Source: Streptomyces adustus (GTDB lineage: Bacteria; Actinomycetota; Actinomycetes; Streptomycetales; Streptomycetaceae). Taken from it: a stretch of 64,000 bases of DNA. The stretch is from positions 1 to 64,000 of the forward strand of contig NZ_VJZD01000014.1 in NCBI RefSeq assembly GCF_009377175.1, read 5' to 3'. The position numbers and the translations under genes were made by a program. Under the pieces are notes generated by a model. That model made no database searches, was not told the origin of the DNA, and saw nothing but the letters and a program-made list of their open reading frames with translations. Shown one piece after another: positions 29,006-34,670 of the stretch; the first letter of the stretch is position 1; each line of letters opens with the position of its first letter.

Positions 29006-29866
29006 TCAGTTCTTCTGCAGAGCCTCGCGCTCCTTGTCGACCATCGCCCAGAGGTCGTCGAAGACTCCTCGCAGGTCGAAGAACTCCGAGTCCGGTCCGG
29101 CATCGGCCGTGAAGTGGCGCAGGGTGGCGCCGACGCCCATGACGTCCACCGCGCCCTCGACGGCCGTCCCGTCCTCCAGCTCTATGCCTTGCTCCAGGCG
29201 GTAGTAGCCCTTGAGTACGTGGGTGCCGTTGAAGACGCACAGTTTGAACTGCGGGGTCAGCGGGATCCTGCGGACCTCCAGGTCCAGTTCGACCTCGCAG
29301 CGCGCGAGCCGGGAACGGCACTGCTCCATGCCGCTCACGTTGCCGCGGGCCATCTCCTGCCAGCGCCGCAGCGGGCGGTCGTCCGCGGGATCCCAGGCGC
29401 GCGGGTAGTAGAGCGCGGTGTCCTCGGCGGGCAGCAGGAACCGTACGGTCACCTTCCGCAGCCCGCTGAACTCGCCGTCCTCCACGCGCTGCACCTGGGT
29501 CCGGAAGAGCCCGACGACCGACTCACCCGTCAGGGCGAAGACGTCGAGCGACGCCTCCGGTGCCGCGAAGAGCCGGGACATGAAGGAGTGCAGCCGGGGC
29601 CGGTCCTGCGGGCTGCTGTCCGACGACGGCTTGCGCAGTACGAACGTGCCGCTGCCCTGCTTCAGGCCGACCAGGCCGGCGTCGGCCAGCAGCCGGGCGG
29701 CCTTCTGCACCGTGTCCCGCGAGCAGTTGAGGTTCGACGCGAGCACACGCTGGGACGGCAGCGTGCTGCCCACCGGGTACGTCCCGTCCGCGATACGCGA
29801 CTCCAGCGCGTCGTACACGCGGCTCAGCGCCCGGGGGTTGCTGTCCTCGCCATCCGAAACACTCAC
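29006..29866 (-). CDS. GntR family regulator, DevA-like paralogue 1
   Basis: 286 residues. The N-terminal winged helix reads LESRIADGTYPVGSTLPSQR, then LASNLNCSRDTVQKAARLLA and GLKQGSGTFVL. The C-terminal domain is the type seen in the other three GntR genes here: VTVRFLLPAEDTALYYP, then a polar stretch and FKLCVFNGTHVLKGYY. No standard FCD or UTRA family was recognised. It is divergent from the 63-residue membrane protein at 30042, with palindromes in the gap. Confidence 0.85.
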   Translation of the reverse strand: MSVSDGEDSNPRALSRVYDALESRIADGTYPVGSTLPSQRVLASNLNCSRDTVQKAARLLADAGLVGLKQGSGTFVLRKPSSDSSPQDRPRLHSFMSRLFAAPEASLDVFALTGESVVGLFRTQVQRVEDGEFSGLRKVTVRFLLPAEDTALYYPRAWDPADDRPLRRWQEMARGNVSGMEQCRSRLARCEVELDLEVRRIPLTPQFKLCVFNGTHVLKGYYRLEQGIELEDGTAVEGAVDVMGVGATLRHFTADAGPDSEFFDLRGVFDDLWAMVDKEREALQKN

Positions 29867-29891
29867 AGGCAGAACCTACCGCTTTCATGCA

Positions 29892-29945
29892 GGTGTGACA
29901 CCACTTCCAGTCAACAACCCCCCATATTGGCCTGCCGGTTAACCG
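29892..29945. promoter_or_regulatory. Palindromes between GntR paralogue 1 and its small partner
   Basis: GGTGTGACACC (29892-29902, perfect) lies 25 bp upstream of the GntR start and CGGTTAACCG (29936-29945, perfect) lies mid-gap. Either could be the GntR operator. They differ from the GTTGG/CCAAC palindromes of the other two modules. Confidence 0.5.
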
Positions 29946-30041
29946 ATCTAGCAGTCCGGGAACAGTCCACTCAGGACAACCAGTCCAATTGGCCGACAAG
30001 TTGACGAAAGTCGACAGCGTTGCACGACCTCCGGGGGGACC

Positions 30042-30233
30042 GTGAAGACTGAGGAGTGGCAGGAGTTGCTGGCAGGCACAGCACTGATCCTGCTGGAGAG
30101 GCTGCTGCGGCAGCACTACGGGGTGCTCGGACCGCTCCTCGTCCTCTCTCTGTCAATTGGACTGAGAGCGGTCAAGGCACCGCCCGGCTGGACCCTCTGC
30201 CTGGTGCTCGTGTGGCTGTCGATCCAGGCCTAG
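30042..30233 (+). CDS. Small membrane protein 1 of the GntR modules
   Basis: 63 residues from GTG at 30042 with GGGGGG at about 30033-30038. It has two hydrophobic stretches around GPLLVLSLSIGL and TLCLVLVWLSIQA. With the proteins at 33041 and 34338 it shares an ungapped pattern E-[QR]-x5-Y-G-x2-G-x7-[ST]-I-G-[IL]-[KR]-A. It is divergent from a GntR gene, as the others are. Function unknown; a membrane partner or sensor for the regulator is a guess. Confidence 0.7.
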   Translation: MKTEEWQELLAGTALILLERLLRQHYGVLGPLLVLSLSIGLRAVKAPPGWTLCLVLVWLSIQA

Positions 30234-30256
30234 CGTCTGCCCCCGTGGACGGAGTC

Positions 30257-31003
30257 TCAGGAGCGGTTCCGCCGCAGGGACGACAGCAGTGGCTCCAGCG
30301 AGCCCATGATGTCGTGGGCCGGCACACCGTCCCCCAGCATCCGCGACCGGGCCGCAGGGTTGCGCGCGTAGCCGAGGAAGCGGACCCCGGCCGCGCGGGC
30401 GGCGGCGTGGTCGGAGAGGGCGTCGCCGATCATCAGCGAGGCGTCCGGCGCGGCGCCCATCGCCCGCAGGGCGCGGTTCAGCATCTCCGGGTGCGGCTTG
30501 AGCAGCCGCAGTTCCTGGGTGCGGCCGTAGATGTGCGGGTCGAAGCAGGGGTACAGACCGCGCCCGGTCAGGTACGAGGCCACCGTGCGGGCCGAGTTGT
30601 TCGTCACGACGGCGAGGCGCGCGCCGACCGCCACCCAGGTCCGGATCAGCGGGTCCGCGTACGCCGTGGGCATCGCCACCCGGGCCGCCCGCAGCTCGTG
30701 CCGGGTGAGGTTCTCCTCCAGTCCGGCGATCACGTCGCTTCCCGGATAGCGGCCGTGCAGCGAACTGAGGGTTCCGTGCGGATCCGAACTCCAACGTTCC
30801 GCCTCGGTGAGCATCCCGCCCAGTCCGCGGACGTCGAGCCAGTTCACCTGGTCCCGGGCTATGACATCGGCCGGATGACCGGAGAACAGCCGGCAGATCG
30901 GCCCGTCGAAATCGAAGAGGACATACCGTGTGCGTGCCACCAGTTCGTGCAGTTCATCGGCTTCACTCGTCACCGGTTCGGCCCGTCCCGTCTCAGCAGT
31001 CAC
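30257..31003 (-). CDS. devB: HAD family hydrolase DevB
   Basis: 248 residues from GTG at 31003, which overlaps the devA stop by four bases (GTGA), a clear sign of translational coupling. HAD motifs: VLFDFDGPICRLF, VVTNNSARTVAS, LLKPHPEMLNRA, MIGDALSDHAAARAAG. In S. coelicolor the devA-devB operon encodes a GntR regulator and a putative phosphatase needed for aerial development; the naming here rests on that arrangement and my memory of it. Substrate unknown. The open frame continues upstream inside devA on another frame but is not coding. Confidence 0.85.
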   Translation of the reverse strand: MTAETGRAEPVTSEADELHELVARTRYVLFDFDGPICRLFSGHPADVIARDQVNWLDVRGLGGMLTEAERWSSDPHGTLSSLHGRYPGSDVIAGLEENLTRHELRAARVAMPTAYADPLIRTWVAVGARLAVVTNNSARTVASYLTGRGLYPCFDPHIYGRTQELRLLKPHPEMLNRALRAMGAAPDASLMIGDALSDHAAARAAGVRFLGYARNPAARSRMLGDGVPAHDIMGSLEPLLSSLRRNRS

Positions 31004-31920
31004 TCTGCGAGTGTCTGTCCGGGAGCCTCCGAATCCCAGAGGGCATCGAAGTAATTCTTGGTGGCCTGCACGACAGCCGCCTCCTGTCCGCCCCTGCTCA
31101 GCCGGTACTCGAACAGGTCCGAGCTGAACCCGCTGACGTCCAGGACGTCGAACTCGCCGGCCCCGGGCAGCTCGTAGGAATGCCGTCCCACCGGGTAGTC
31201 GCCCCGCAGGGCGAGCGTGCCGTTCAGCACGTACTTCTTCTCCGACGGCACGAAGCGCAGTGGGCGGAAGGTCACCCCGGTGGCGACGCCCTGGTAGCGG
31301 CGGAGGTTGGACAGATGGATCTCCATGGTCTTCATCTGGGCCCTGATCTGCGCCTTCAGCTGCTCGTGCACCGCGTCCCTGAGGTCCGGCCGGTCCACGG
31401 GTTCGGGATAGGGCAGCGGGGCGCCGGGCCCCGGCAGCAGGCACCGTACGGTGACCGACGCGGGGCGGGCCTCGCCCCTGGCGACCGCCGCGCACATCTC
31501 GGCGAGCGCCCACAGCAAGGTCTCCGCGGTGAAGCAGACGGCGTCGATGGTCACGTCCTCGGCCCGGAACGCCTCCTCCAGATACCTGATCAGGACCACC
31601 CGGGCCGCCCTGGACTCCTGCGGGGGTCCCACGGGGACGTCGGCCACCCTCGGCGGGCTCCCCTTGGTCACATGGGTCAGCAGTCCGTCGTGCTGGAGCA
31701 TGCCCAGCGCCTGGCGCACCGTGCCGCGCTCGACCCCGAACTCCTCCGCGAGCACGGCCTGGGTGGGCAGCCGGTCCCCGGCCTCCAGGTCTCCGGCCCT
31801 GATGCGCTCCCGCAGGGCGTCGGCGATCTCCTGGGCCGAGGTTCTCCCGCTGCCGTTCACCACCGCGTTCTCCTGGTCGACGTCCGTGCCCCGAGTGCCC
31901 CCGCGGGGCGTCTGCGGCAC
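31000..31920 (-). CDS. devA: GntR family developmental regulator DevA
   Basis: 306 residues from GTG at 31920. The winged helix (LRERIRAGDLEAGDRLPTQA, then LAEEFGVERGTVRQALGMLQ) is followed by a linker and the DevA-type C-terminal domain (VTVRCLLPGPGAPLPYPEPV, YVLNGTLALRGDYPVG). DevA controls aerial hyphae and septation in S. coelicolor. It starts only three bases after the stop of the GntR gene at 31924, so that gene, devA and devB form a three-gene operon. Confidence 0.83.
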   Translation of the reverse strand: MPQTPRGGTRGTDVDQENAVVNGSGRTSAQEIADALRERIRAGDLEAGDRLPTQAVLAEEFGVERGTVRQALGMLQHDGLLTHVTKGSPPRVADVPVGPPQESRAARVVLIRYLEEAFRAEDVTIDAVCFTAETLLWALAEMCAAVARGEARPASVTVRCLLPGPGAPLPYPEPVDRPDLRDAVHEQLKAQIRAQMKTMEIHLSNLRRYQGVATGVTFRPLRFVPSEKKYVLNGTLALRGDYPVGRHSYELPGAGEFDVLDVSGFSSDLFEYRLSRGGQEAAVVQATKNYFDALWDSEAPGQTLAE

Positions 31921-31923
31921 CTG

Positions 31924-32796
31924 TCAGCTGAGGGTCAGGTCCGTAGTGATGGTTCCCCAGAGTGCGTCGAACCATTTCCGGGACTGTTCCACGAACGCGG
32001 CGTCCCGCTCCCCTGCGCCCCGCTCGAAGGAGAACAGGACGGACTCGGAACCCTGCACGTCGTACATGTCCATGGTCCCGCTCTCGGTGGCTTCCTCCCG
32101 GAGCTTGATCATGTAGTACGCCATCAGCGCCTCTGTCCCGTTGAGCAGATACAGCTTCACCGGAGGGGTGAAGGGCAGGGCGCGGAAGGTCACCCGCACA
32201 TCGATGCCGTGGGAGGAGCGCAGCGCGCGGAGGTTGTGCCGCAGGACCTGCCCCTGGGCGTTGCGCATCGCCAGCCACCGCTGGTGGACCGGGTCGTCGT
32301 CCCCGCGTCCGTCGACCGGGATCGGGAAGGCCAGGTCGATGTTCCGGCTCGGCAGCAGGATGCGGACGTCGATCGACTCGGGGTGGACGCGGCCCTCGTG
32401 GATCAGGCGCAACGGTTCGCTCAGGGCCAGCATCAGGCTCTCGGCCGTGAGGCAGGCCGCGTCGATCCGTACGTGCGGGGCCTTGAACGCCTCGGTGAGC
32501 CGGGGCGCCAGACCGACCATCGTCGGCTGCGGCCGGTGGTCGGCCGGTGCCGGTTCCGCGATGCGCGGCGGGCTGCCCTTGCTCACGTTGCTGAGCAGAC
32601 CGTCGTCCTGGAGCGCGCGCAGGGCCTGGCGCACGGTGCCGCGCTCGACCCCGAACTCCTCCGCGAGCTCCGCCTGGGTGGGCAGCCGGTCGCCCGCCTT
32701 GAGGTCTCCGACGCGGATGCGTTCGCGCAGGACGTCGGCGACGTCCTGCGCCGACGACTTCCTGCTGCCGTTCACTGCCACGTTCTCCTGAGCCAC
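31924..32796 (-). CDS. GntR family regulator, DevA-like paralogue 2
   Basis: About 290 residues. I prefer GTG at 32796: a TAGCGT box ends six bases before it, suggesting a leaderless message; a TTG at 32802 is in frame. The winged helix (LAEEFGVERGTVRQALRALQ) is almost identical to that of devA. The effector domain (VRILLPSRNIDLAFPIPVDG, then PPVKLYLLNGTEALMAYY) is closest to the regulator at 33267. First gene of the operon with devA and devB; divergent from small membrane protein 2. Confidence 0.82.
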   Translation of the reverse strand: MAQENVAVNGSRKSSAQDVADVLRERIRVGDLKAGDRLPTQAELAEEFGVERGTVRQALRALQDDGLLSNVSKGSPPRIAEPAPADHRPQPTMVGLAPRLTEAFKAPHVRIDAACLTAESLMLALSEPLRLIHEGRVHPESIDVRILLPSRNIDLAFPIPVDGRGDDDPVHQRWLAMRNAQGQVLRHNLRALRSSHGIDVRVTFRALPFTPPVKLYLLNGTEALMAYYMIKLREEATESGTMDMYDVQGSESVLFSFERGAGERDAAFVEQSRKWFDALWGTITTDLTLS

Positions 32797-32881
32797 GACC
32801 AAACGCTACAACTCAGATCCATCTATCGGGAGTTGTTTGAAAGTTGTTTACGACTGGCTGCCAAGTGGGGACAAACTCTTT

Positions 32882-32900
32882 GGAGTTGGCGACCAACTTC
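32882..32900. promoter_or_regulatory. GTTGG/CCAAC palindrome, module 2
   Basis: GGAGTTGG-CGA-CCAACTTC, a near-perfect palindrome, starts 80 bp from position 32802. The equivalent sequence in module 3 (34261-34279) starts exactly 80 bp from position 34181. A further pair, AGTTGTTTG and AGTTGTTTA, lies nearer the regulator. Probable GntR-type operator. Confidence 0.65.
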
Positions 32901-33040
32901 TCCAAGTTGGCGGAAGGTTTGCCTCCCATCTACCAGCCTCCCGGCCTCCGTCCTCCCGCACCTGTCCTGTCCCGCGCTGTCCAGCCCGGCTCCACCCCGC
33001 CCCGCCCTGTCCCGTCCGGCAGCCCGAAGGGGGAACCACC

Positions 33041-33277
33041 GTGCCCGCTGCTCTCGCTCTTCTGACCACCGTCCTGGGCGTAGGCCTGGAACAGACCGTC
33101 CAGTGGAAATACGGCGCCGCCGGCGTCATCGGCCTGCTGCTGCTCTCCATCGGCATCAGGGCCAGGAACCCGACGGTCAGCTCCATCGGGGCCGTCATGC
33201 TCGCCGCCCTGGTCACAGGCCCGCCGTGTGACACGGCGCCGCCCGGCCCGTCCTCCGTGGGAGACGTCAGTCCGTGA
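33041..33277 (+). CDS. Small membrane protein 2 of the GntR modules
   Basis: 78 residues from GTG at 33041, with AAGGGGGAA upstream. Two hydrophobic stretches, around ALLTTVLGVGLE and GVIGLLLLSIGI, then a third weaker one (GAVMLAALV) and a short polar tail. It carries the E-Q-x5-Y-G-x2-G-x7-S-I-G pattern and is very like protein 3. Its 3' end overlaps the 3' end of the convergent GntR gene by 11 bases. Confidence 0.72.
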   Translation: MPAALALLTTVLGVGLEQTVQWKYGAAGVIGLLLLSIGIRARNPTVSSIGAVMLAALVTGPPCDTAPPGPSSVGDVSP

Positions 33278-34175
33278 GCACCAGCTCCGAACTGATCGTC
33301 TCCCACAGCGCGTTGAACCACAGGCACGACTGCTCCACGAACGTCGTGTCCCGCAGCCCCACGCCCCGCTCGAAGGCGAACAGCATCGACCGGGTGCCCT
33401 CGGCGTCGTACATCTCCAGCGACTCGTGGTCGACCTCCGCCTCCCGGCGCACCAGCGTGTAGTAGGCGAAGAGGGCCTCCGCCCCGTTGAGCAGGTAGAG
33501 CTTGACCGGCGGGGTGAAGGGCAGGGCGCGGAAGGTCACCCGGACGTCGATGCCGTGCGTGGAGCGCAGGGCCAGCAGGTTGTGCCGCAGCACCTGCCCC
33601 TGCGCGTTGCGCTGGGCCAGCCAACGGCGTTGCAGGCGTTCGGGATCCGAGCGGTCGACCGGCGCCGGGAAGGCCAGGTCGATGTTCCGGCTCGGCAGCA
33701 GGATCCGCACGTCGACCTTGGCCGGTTCCATACGCCCCTCATGGATCCGGCGCAGCGGCTCGCCCATGGCGAGGGTGAGGGAGACCGAGGTCAGACAGAG
33801 CGCGTCGATCGAGACGTGCGGGGCCGCGAAGGCACCCGTGACCCGCGGACCGAGGGTCACCATGGTGGGCTGCGGCGGGACCTCCGGACCGGTCGGGGCC
33901 CGGCCGAGCCCCAGGTCGGAGGCGACGGTCGCCGGACTCCCCTTGGACATGTTGGTGAGCAGCCGCTCCGCCTGGAGGATCCGCAGCGCCTCCCGCACGG
34001 CCCCGCGCTCGACCCCGAACTCCTCCGCGAGCACGGCCTGCGTGGGCATGCGCTGACCCGGCCGCAGCACCCCGGACCTGATCCGGGTGCGCAGCACGTC
34101 GGCCACCTCGCGGTGTGTCACCTGTGGCGGCTGTGGCCTTTTCCGCCCACTGGCGGAGGCGGGTTCCGGGTCCAC
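33267..34175 (-). CDS. GntR family regulator, DevA-like paralogue 3 (possibly devE)
   Basis: About 302 residues from GTG at 34175, preceded six bases upstream by TAGGGT, the same leaderless-looking layout as paralogue 2. The winged helix is LAEEFGVERGAVREALRILQ; the C-terminal domain (VRILLPSRNIDLAFPAPVDR, then PPVKLYLLNGAEALFAYY) is nearly identical to paralogue 2. From position it would correspond to devE of S. coelicolor, but I am not certain of that assignment. Divergent from small membrane protein 3. Confidence 0.82.
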   Translation of the reverse strand: MDPEPASASGRKRPQPPQVTHREVADVLRTRIRSGVLRPGQRMPTQAVLAEEFGVERGAVREALRILQAERLLTNMSKGSPATVASDLGLGRAPTGPEVPPQPTMVTLGPRVTGAFAAPHVSIDALCLTSVSLTLAMGEPLRRIHEGRMEPAKVDVRILLPSRNIDLAFPAPVDRSDPERLQRRWLAQRNAQGQVLRHNLLALRSTHGIDVRVTFRALPFTPPVKLYLLNGAEALFAYYTLVRREAEVDHESLEMYDAEGTRSMLFAFERGVGLRDTTFVEQSCLWFNALWETISSELVLTD

Positions 34176-34260
34176 GACCAAACCCTACAACTTCCCGCCA
34201 TCTTTGGGCAGTTCATGTGAAGGTGGTTATGAGCCGCTTCCAAGCGGAGATAACTACAGT

Positions 34261-34279
34261 GAAGTTGGTCGCCAACTTC
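34261..34279. promoter_or_regulatory. Perfect GTTGG/CCAAC palindrome, module 3
   Basis: GAAGTTGG-TCG-CCAACTTC is a perfect 8-bp inverted repeat with a 3-base spacer, 59 bp upstream of the small membrane gene and 80 bp from position 34181 at the regulator's 5' end. The surrounding 100 bases align without gaps to the corresponding gap of module 2. Confidence 0.72.
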
Positions 34280-34337
34280 AGCAACATGGTCAGACCGATG
34301 GCGGGTTGGCCGCCAGGAGGGACAAGGAGAGACCGTC

Positions 34338-34523
34338 ATGCCGCTCGTCGCCCTCGCTGTCGCCGCCCTCGCCGTCGGCTTCGAACAGATCGTCCAGTGG
34401 AAGTACGGGCCGATGGGACTCGTCGCGTTCGCCGCGCTGACCATCGGCCTCAAAGCCAGGAGCACCACGATCAGTGGTATCGGAGCGGTGATCCTCGTGA
34501 TGCTGCTCGCCCAGTCCGGCTGA
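34338..34523 (+). CDS. Small membrane protein 3 of the GntR modules
   Basis: 61 residues from ATG at 34338 with AAGGAG ten bases upstream. Hydrophobic helices around ALAVAALAVGFE, GLVAFAALTIGL and GIGAVILVMLLA. It shares the E-Q-x5-Y-G-x2-G-x7-T-I-G-L-K-A pattern. Divergent from GntR paralogue 3. Function unknown. Confidence 0.72.
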   Translation: MPLVALAVAALAVGFEQIVQWKYGPMGLVAFAALTIGLKARSTTISGIGAVILVMLLAQSG

Positions 34524-34670
34524 CCGGGCTCCCTTCCGGAGGGGAGCCGGGAGCCTGGTCCGTCTGCACCACCGCACAACAACCACAACCGAACAGCACC
34601 AGCTACGGATGCGTGGTACCGCACTGCCGCATCACAGCACCACCGCACCGCCGTCGACCGGAAGGAGGCC

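Follow-up and report, generated by a model that had tools for sequence, protein, structure and literature searches.

Small predicted membrane proteins of an enlarged Streptomyces dev locus as likely targets of divergent DevA-type regulators

A 64,000-nucleotide stretch of Streptomyces adustus DNA (contig NZ_VJZD01000014.1, positions 1 to 64,000; hereafter the window) contains an enlarged version of the Streptomyces dev locus, in which three small genes each lie divergent from a gene for a DevA-type GntR regulator. The data suggest that these genes encode predicted membrane proteins that the divergent regulators probably repress until sporulation, through a palindrome placed at a sporulation-type promoter. 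A sequence-only reading of the same DNA had described the three small genes and a motif common to them, and had proposed that their products are an overlooked membrane partner or sensor of the regulators. All three plus-strand open reading frames (ORFs) are confirmed, are homologous and face a DevA-type gene, in the following layout:

29006..29866, minus strand: GntR1, a distant DevA-type regulator (31% identity to DevA), partner of S1
30042..30233, plus strand: S1, a small predicted membrane protein of 63 amino acids, divergent from GntR1
30257..31003, minus strand: devB-like gene for a HAD-family phosphatase (Pfam Hydrolase/HAD_2), same strand as devA
31000..31920, minus strand: GntR2, an additional regulator of the DevA type, located between devB and devA, with no divergent small gene
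31924..32802, minus strand: GntR3, the DevA-type regulator in the devA position (AlphaFold2 model, predicted local distance difference test (pLDDT) 92)
33041..33277, plus strand: S2, a small predicted membrane protein of 78 amino acids in the devC position
33267..34181, minus strand: GntR4, the DevE-type regulator
34338..34523, plus strand: S3, the devE-linked devC paralogue of 61 amino acids (three-helix AlphaFold2 model)

The devB phosphatase gene thus accompanies devA and the divergent devC, with GntR2 intervening between devA and devB. This fourth DevA-type gene, which has no divergent small gene, went unmentioned in the sequence-only reading; GntR2 is the best match for only 4 of 198 GntR ORFs, itself included. 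S2 carries a C-terminal extension of about 16 residues beyond the usual end of its family (33218-33277), which runs into the convergent 3' end of devE.

The pairing of devA and devC as such is already known. In the available part of a 2011 account by Clark and Hoskisson, devC is named beside devA as a divergent hypothetical protein of about 50 residues (PMC3187754), and a promoter of the gene has been published as well (PMC8346170, likewise available in part), so that the small genes were overlooked only in part. The same portion of the 2011 account reports negative autoregulation of DevA, names devB as the one known DevA-controlled gene, and describes the functions, regulons and sensed metabolites of DevA and DevE as being at an early stage of study (PMC3187754). 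Mutants of DevA and DevE are blocked in spore formation. In the open-licence literature, neither a function of devC nor a paper joining the devA/devC locus with the facts on its promoter, SCO4189p, was found.

That the three small proteins form one family of about 60 residues, with a three-helix prediction and constraint in the reading frame, is new. Specifically, S2 and S3 are 50% identical over 54 amino acids (E 1e-17 in a search of 8 proteins), and S1 matches either of them at E of about 2e-4 to 3e-4 in the same search; by profile S1 is clear (E 3e-12), though it is itself a row of that profile. The motif proposed from the window fits all three proteins and has no further match in any of the six frames of the 64 kb; 200 shuffles of the translated frames gave an expectation of 0 matches. 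It is narrower than the family, being matched by 38 of 145 members. The members from the loci have a median length of 61 residues, 80% of them within 55-63. The family profile has at least 333 database relatives among 7987 candidates scored, S1 has 3 and S3 at least 226. Hydropathy and the three predicted helices mark the proteins as predicted membrane proteins, and the AlphaFold2 model of S3 has three helices at pLDDT 77 (57-77 over five models). Scans of Pfam and NCBIfam gave no family above cut-off for the small proteins, and comparing the model with PDB structures by Foldseek yielded nothing at E <=0.001.

Several features suggest that the small ORFs are coding. Shine-Dalgarno-like letters precede 124 of 145 starts, compared with 24% of random stretches from the same loci, and the second codon positions are the most conserved. 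The ratio of nonsynonymous to synonymous substitution (dN/dS) is 0.42 in frame for devA-adjacent and 0.40 for devE-adjacent genes, versus 0.69-2.19 in shifted frames. The expectation of a ratio below neutral is thereby borne out in two classes, while constraint in the S1 type is weak. These values are rough: they are Nei-Gojobori counts from GC-rich DNA, taken over pairs of equal length without gaps, and applied to the partner GntR genes the script returns 0.37, 0.71 and 1.67 (14 pairs for the last value).

The regulators themselves form one subfamily. All four have an N-terminal GntR winged helix (PF00392 above cut-off) and a common C-terminal domain, with near full-length matches to one another and across a wider regulator set (set A2), GntR1 being distant; GntR3 and GntR4 are 62% identical. 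A further new result is that this ligand domain has a phospholipase-D (PLD) fold without the catalytic histidine. The H-x-K-x4-D motif of catalytic PLD (HKD) enzymes is absent: in a register set by motif spacing rather than by structure, the place of the histidine is taken by Q, S, P and P in GntR1 to GntR4, respectively, and in set A2 the lysine is kept (K215, 66 of 67) and the aspartate replaced (N220, 65 of 67). A dead PLD fold as ligand domain hints at the kind of chemistry among which a signal for these regulators may be sought.

The module of a regulator and a small predicted membrane protein, duplicated in tandem in the window, recurs across the genus. A match to S3 at E <=1e-3 is present in 84 of 150 Streptomyces genomes, and a DevA-like match at <=1e-25 in at least 101. 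Pairing was examined in 84 loci from 83 genomes, picked by a small-protein match, and in 5 loci (L117-L121) picked by a GntR match alone; the small ORFs were found with a profile grown from the three proteins of the window. A divergent DevA-type GntR gene stands no more than 350 bp from 132 of the 140 small ORFs in the 84 loci, and for 129 of 137 the closest counterpart from a different genome is paired with the same class of GntR gene. The 8 unpaired ORFs comprise one of two tandem genes each in L075 and L082; those of L034 and L043, with a DevA-type GntR gene 1.2-1.3 kb away; those of L071 and L098; and one further small ORF each in L079 and L103, where no DevA-type GntR gene adjoins it in the stretch and the other small ORFs are paired. 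The devC-like genes of L071 (4355-4540) and L098 (3475-3657) are orphans, with no DevA-type GntR gene within the fetched stretch. In L075 and L082, the two small genes stand in tandem without devE between them, the devE-type small gene persisting behind devC. L091, a weak match, held no family member on re-scoring, and L120 and L121 hold a diverged member by profile.

Seen from the regulators, a small gene is present at 61 of 65 devA genes (counted at >=67% identity and biased upward by the choice of loci; one of the four exceptions is a gene fragment), at 22 of 33 full-length GntR1-class genes and at 30 of 60 devE genes, the last two counts coming from the same loci with a smaller bias. Counts of partnerless regulators drop ORFs with fewer than 780 nt matched. 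Outside Streptomyces, no member of the small family appeared at E 1e-3 among the matches listed for 396 genomes of the phylum (236 genera) and 197 of the order (6 genera), searches that scored no more than 16 and 32 candidates, respectively, from each genome. A genome under the name Kitasatospora aureofaciens (L240) does carry a member, and the restriction to one genus may reflect sensitivity or naming. A DevA-type match at 1e-35 was found in 12 genomes outside the genus; at the 11 loci examined (G198, with a split gene, was left out), none had a divergent small hydrophobic ORF. The same scan found none at the distant Streptomyces loci L221, L222, L230 and L231, nor at L117-L119, and recovered the small ORFs in L232-L236 as a positive control. 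Homologues thus do occur beside other DevA-type regulators within the genus, and none is recognisable at the 11 loci examined beyond it.

These distributions bear on the proposed role of the small protein as a partner or sensor in the membrane, one that would hold its GntR regulator or let it go, for example via a lipid surface or a ligand. One-to-one pairing, co-inheritance of partner classes and the PLD fold of the ligand domain would all suit such a role. However, the small gene is missing from half of the devE genes and from 11 of 33 full-length GntR1-class genes, the loss at devE arguing against an obligate partner role there; the 11 loci examined outside the genus lack it throughout; and a promoter and operator logic, described below, accounts for the linkage without contact between the proteins. 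This proposal is thereby weakened, and we regard it as rather unlikely; the small proteins are more likely the target of the regulators than their sensor.

The case for a target lies in the gaps between the divergent genes, where promoter-like and operator-like elements were found in the window:

29937..29963, plus strand: S1 promoter, SigB/SigF-family-like, GGTTAA-N15-GGGAAC (sequence match)
29983..29994, no strand: candidate operator for GntR1, GTCCAATTGGCC, which differs from GTCCAATTGGAC by a single mismatch
32846..32872, plus strand: devC promoter, GTTTAC-N15-GGGGAC, laid out as the published SCO4189p (SigF/H/N)
32884..32898, no strand: candidate DevA/DevE operator AGTTGGCGACCAACT, 11 nt past the -10 box
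34225..34251, plus strand: S3 promoter, SigF-family-like, GGTTAT-N15-GGAGAT
34263..34277, no strand: candidate DevA/DevE operator AGTTGGTCGCCAACT, 11 nt past the -10 box
34524..34558, plus strand: terminator-like stem-loop after S3

The putative promoters of S2 and S3 are laid out like a published SigF/SigH/SigN-type promoter, and S1 has a SigB-family-like pair of boxes. The published promoter, SCO4189p (pF23p), is listed as dependent on SigF, SigH and SigN, and has a -35 box GTTTAT, a 15-nt spacer and a -10 box GGGGAC (PMC8346170, Table 2, in the part of the source available). Its published 44 nt lie without mismatch before the devC gene of L162, and 43 of the 44 precede the devC genes of four named genomes (L239-L242), S. 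tendae among them. The devC promoter of the window differs in 12 of 44 letters, with spacing and -10 box kept and GTTTAC for GTTTAT at -35; judged by position and promoter layout, S2 is DevC, the orthologue of SCO4189. A strict form of the pattern occurs in 38 of 83 devA-type, 21 of 30 devE-type and 12 of 23 S1-type gaps, against 0.7, 0.25 and 0.05 expected, and in none of these gaps does it point towards the GntR gene. The dev locus thereby gains a candidate link to SigF, SigH and SigN.

A palindrome common to the devA/devC and devE/S3 gaps, together with a separate one for the third pair, is likewise new. The exact sequence AGTTGG-N3-CCAACT is present in 58 of 83 devA-class and 30 of 30 devE-class gaps that have a small gene, and the GntR1-class palindrome GTCCAATTGGAC in 15 of 23 S1-type gaps, with 0.0 expected from Markov-1 resampling in each case. 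Where both elements are present, the operator starts 11 nt past the -10 box in 33 of 34 devA-class and 21 of 21 devE-class gaps; the S1 operator starts 19 nt past its own. The presumed recognition helix, at the position we take it to occupy in these GntR proteins, reads mostly ERG[TA]VR in DevA and DevE and SRDTVQ in the GntR1 class (7 of 35 rows caught by the pattern), so that two helix types agree with two operator classes. In L162, the operator begins 11 nt past the -10 box and 4 nt beyond the final letter of the published column of transcription start sites (as given in the accessible part of PMC8346170).

At exact-match sensitivity, AGTTGG-N3-CCAACT appears to mark these modules and little else. 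The 10.2-Mb draft assembly holds two exact copies, in the devA/devC and devE/S3 gaps, and one copy of a reversed control; the 12-mer CAGTCCAATTGG, taken from the window, occurs once in the assembly by construction. Across the 150 genomes there are at least 161 exact sites. Among the sites listed, the 89 genomes from which a locus was fetched account for 147, of which 127 lie inside that locus; the 20 outside (0.22 per genome) resemble in rate the 14 sites of the remaining 61 genomes (0.23). A palindrome that marks the modules at a sporulation-sigma promoter would make devC and its copies an immediate candidate target.

The devE loci without a small ORF offer a further view of the same elements, and it is new that half of the devE genes (30/60) are of this kind and that nearly all of them retain promoter, palindrome and stem-loop. 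A stem-loop similar to that after S3 (at most 4 mismatches in 18 nt) is found at 29 of 30 devE loci with the ORF and 29 of 30 without, lying 251-477 nt after the operator in 29 of 30 of the former and 22-89 nt after it in 29 of 30 of the latter. Most simply, the ORF was removed and the control elements were kept, perhaps several times. A single origin of this loss was considered: the devE tree needs at least 10 changes of partner state, of which well-supported branches force only 2. No recurring small hydrophobic ORF was found as a replacement behind the kept promoter in the 30 partnerless loci. Cassettes of this kind, each with a SigB-type promoter, a DevA/DevE palindrome and a terminator-like stem-loop, are seen for example in L033, L038, L040, L042, L050 and L081. 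By eye, short direct repeats like CACAGCCACAACTGAACAGC, in variable number, lie downstream of the ORF-less cassettes in L081, L086, L092 and L100.

Such cassettes could be taken to mean that what is conserved is an operator cassette or a regulatory RNA, with the ORF incidental to it, as the close spacing of operator and stem-loop and the promoter kept in 28 of 30 loci would allow. Against this speak the in-frame purifying selection with its conserved second codon positions and the Shine-Dalgarno-like letters before most starts; it is the most improbable of the readings considered. Alternatively, the small ORFs might encode a type-I-toxin-like or growth-inhibiting hydrophobic peptide silenced by a GntR repressor: they are small, hydrophobic and closely linked to a putative repressor, and half of the devE loci have lost the ORF while the control elements stay. 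Family-wide conservation, the sporulation-type promoter and repeated co-duplication argue otherwise, as does the survival of the devE-type small gene without devE in L075 and L082, and a toxin-like role is very unlikely.

The same loci, along with several other observations, also weigh against a dedicated-target model. Partnerless devE genes keep the outward promoter in 28 of 30 cases and the operator in 29 of 30, and the promoter also remains at 5 of the 11 GntR1-class genes that have no partner. Since the elements are retained without the small ORF, they may serve the regulator gene (e.g. devE) itself. The distance between the operator and the start of the matched GntR domain is exactly 84 nt in 40 of 58 devA-class and 24 of 30 devE-class gaps, but its distance to the small gene varies from 29 to 185 nt. 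The strict promoter pattern is met by only 38 of 83, 21 of 30 and 12 of 23 gaps, and the published activity of SCO4189p comes, in the part of PMC8346170 available, from a two-plasmid system in E. coli. The reversed control pattern has at least 116 sites in the 150 genomes compared with at least 161, and the genome-wide count took exact sites, leaving weaker targets possible. Furthermore, constraint in the S1-type class is weak (dN/dS 0.72, 33 pairs), and S1 of the window belongs to the 8 of 137 small proteins for which the closest relative is paired with a different class of regulator.

Pairing, palindromes, the placement of the latter 11 nt past the -10 box for devC and S3, the lack of further exact copies in the assembly, the match to a published promoter and the coding constraint together form the observed basis for a model in which the small proteins are probably devC-paralogue predicted membrane proteins, dedicated targets repressed by the divergent DevA-type GntR regulator until sporulation. 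Specifically, a sporulation sigma factor would transcribe the small gene in aerial hyphae, and DevA and DevE would both bind AGTTGG-N3-CCAACT and block this transcription; that the two read one palindrome is suggested by their similar presumed recognition helices and the identical half-sites. Lying at the predicted transcription start, the palindrome would act as a roadblock, in keeping with established repressor logic. A ligand in the PLD-like, histidine-less domain would then release DevA or DevE, and the small protein would go on to act in the membrane, during septation or the maturation of spores. S1 and GntR1 would form a circuit of the same design that uses a separate operator. A more far-reaching version, in which DevA and DevE sense a lipid or phospho-lipid through the dead PLD domain, the operator is private to two modules, the gated, sporulation-sigma-driven membrane protein alters the signal so as to close a membrane-state circuit, and the ORF-less devE cassette is an operator-bearing small RNA gene, is unlikely as a whole.

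Among known systems, TrmB-type regulators, which are transcription regulators with a PLD-like effector domain, share the fold of the ligand domain, while the DNA-binding domain here is GntR. SmeA (PMC4255298 and PMC6428758, both available in part) a protein of sporulation septa, is alike at most as a small membrane protein made for sporulation, a likeness by description only; unlike the devC family, it shares an operon with SffA, a DNA translocase, and is under the control of BldC. Much closer is SCO4189p, with the same -35 and -10 box layout, 15-nt spacer and place before devC, and with the same letters in L162 and L239-L242; its source, as far as available, does not link the promoter to devA, a GntR operator or a paralogue family (PMC8346170). 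The available part of the 2011 account reports four devA-like genes in S. sviceus, as in the window, and states that S. sviceus and S. coelicolor alone have retained the devE-linked copy of devC (PMC3187754), whereas here half of the 60 devE genes have the linked small gene and a third, GntR1-linked class is added. The dev locus of S. coelicolor itself (the SCO4188-SCO4191 region) agrees with the window in gene order, GntR subfamily, HAD phosphatase, divergent small gene and devC promoter.

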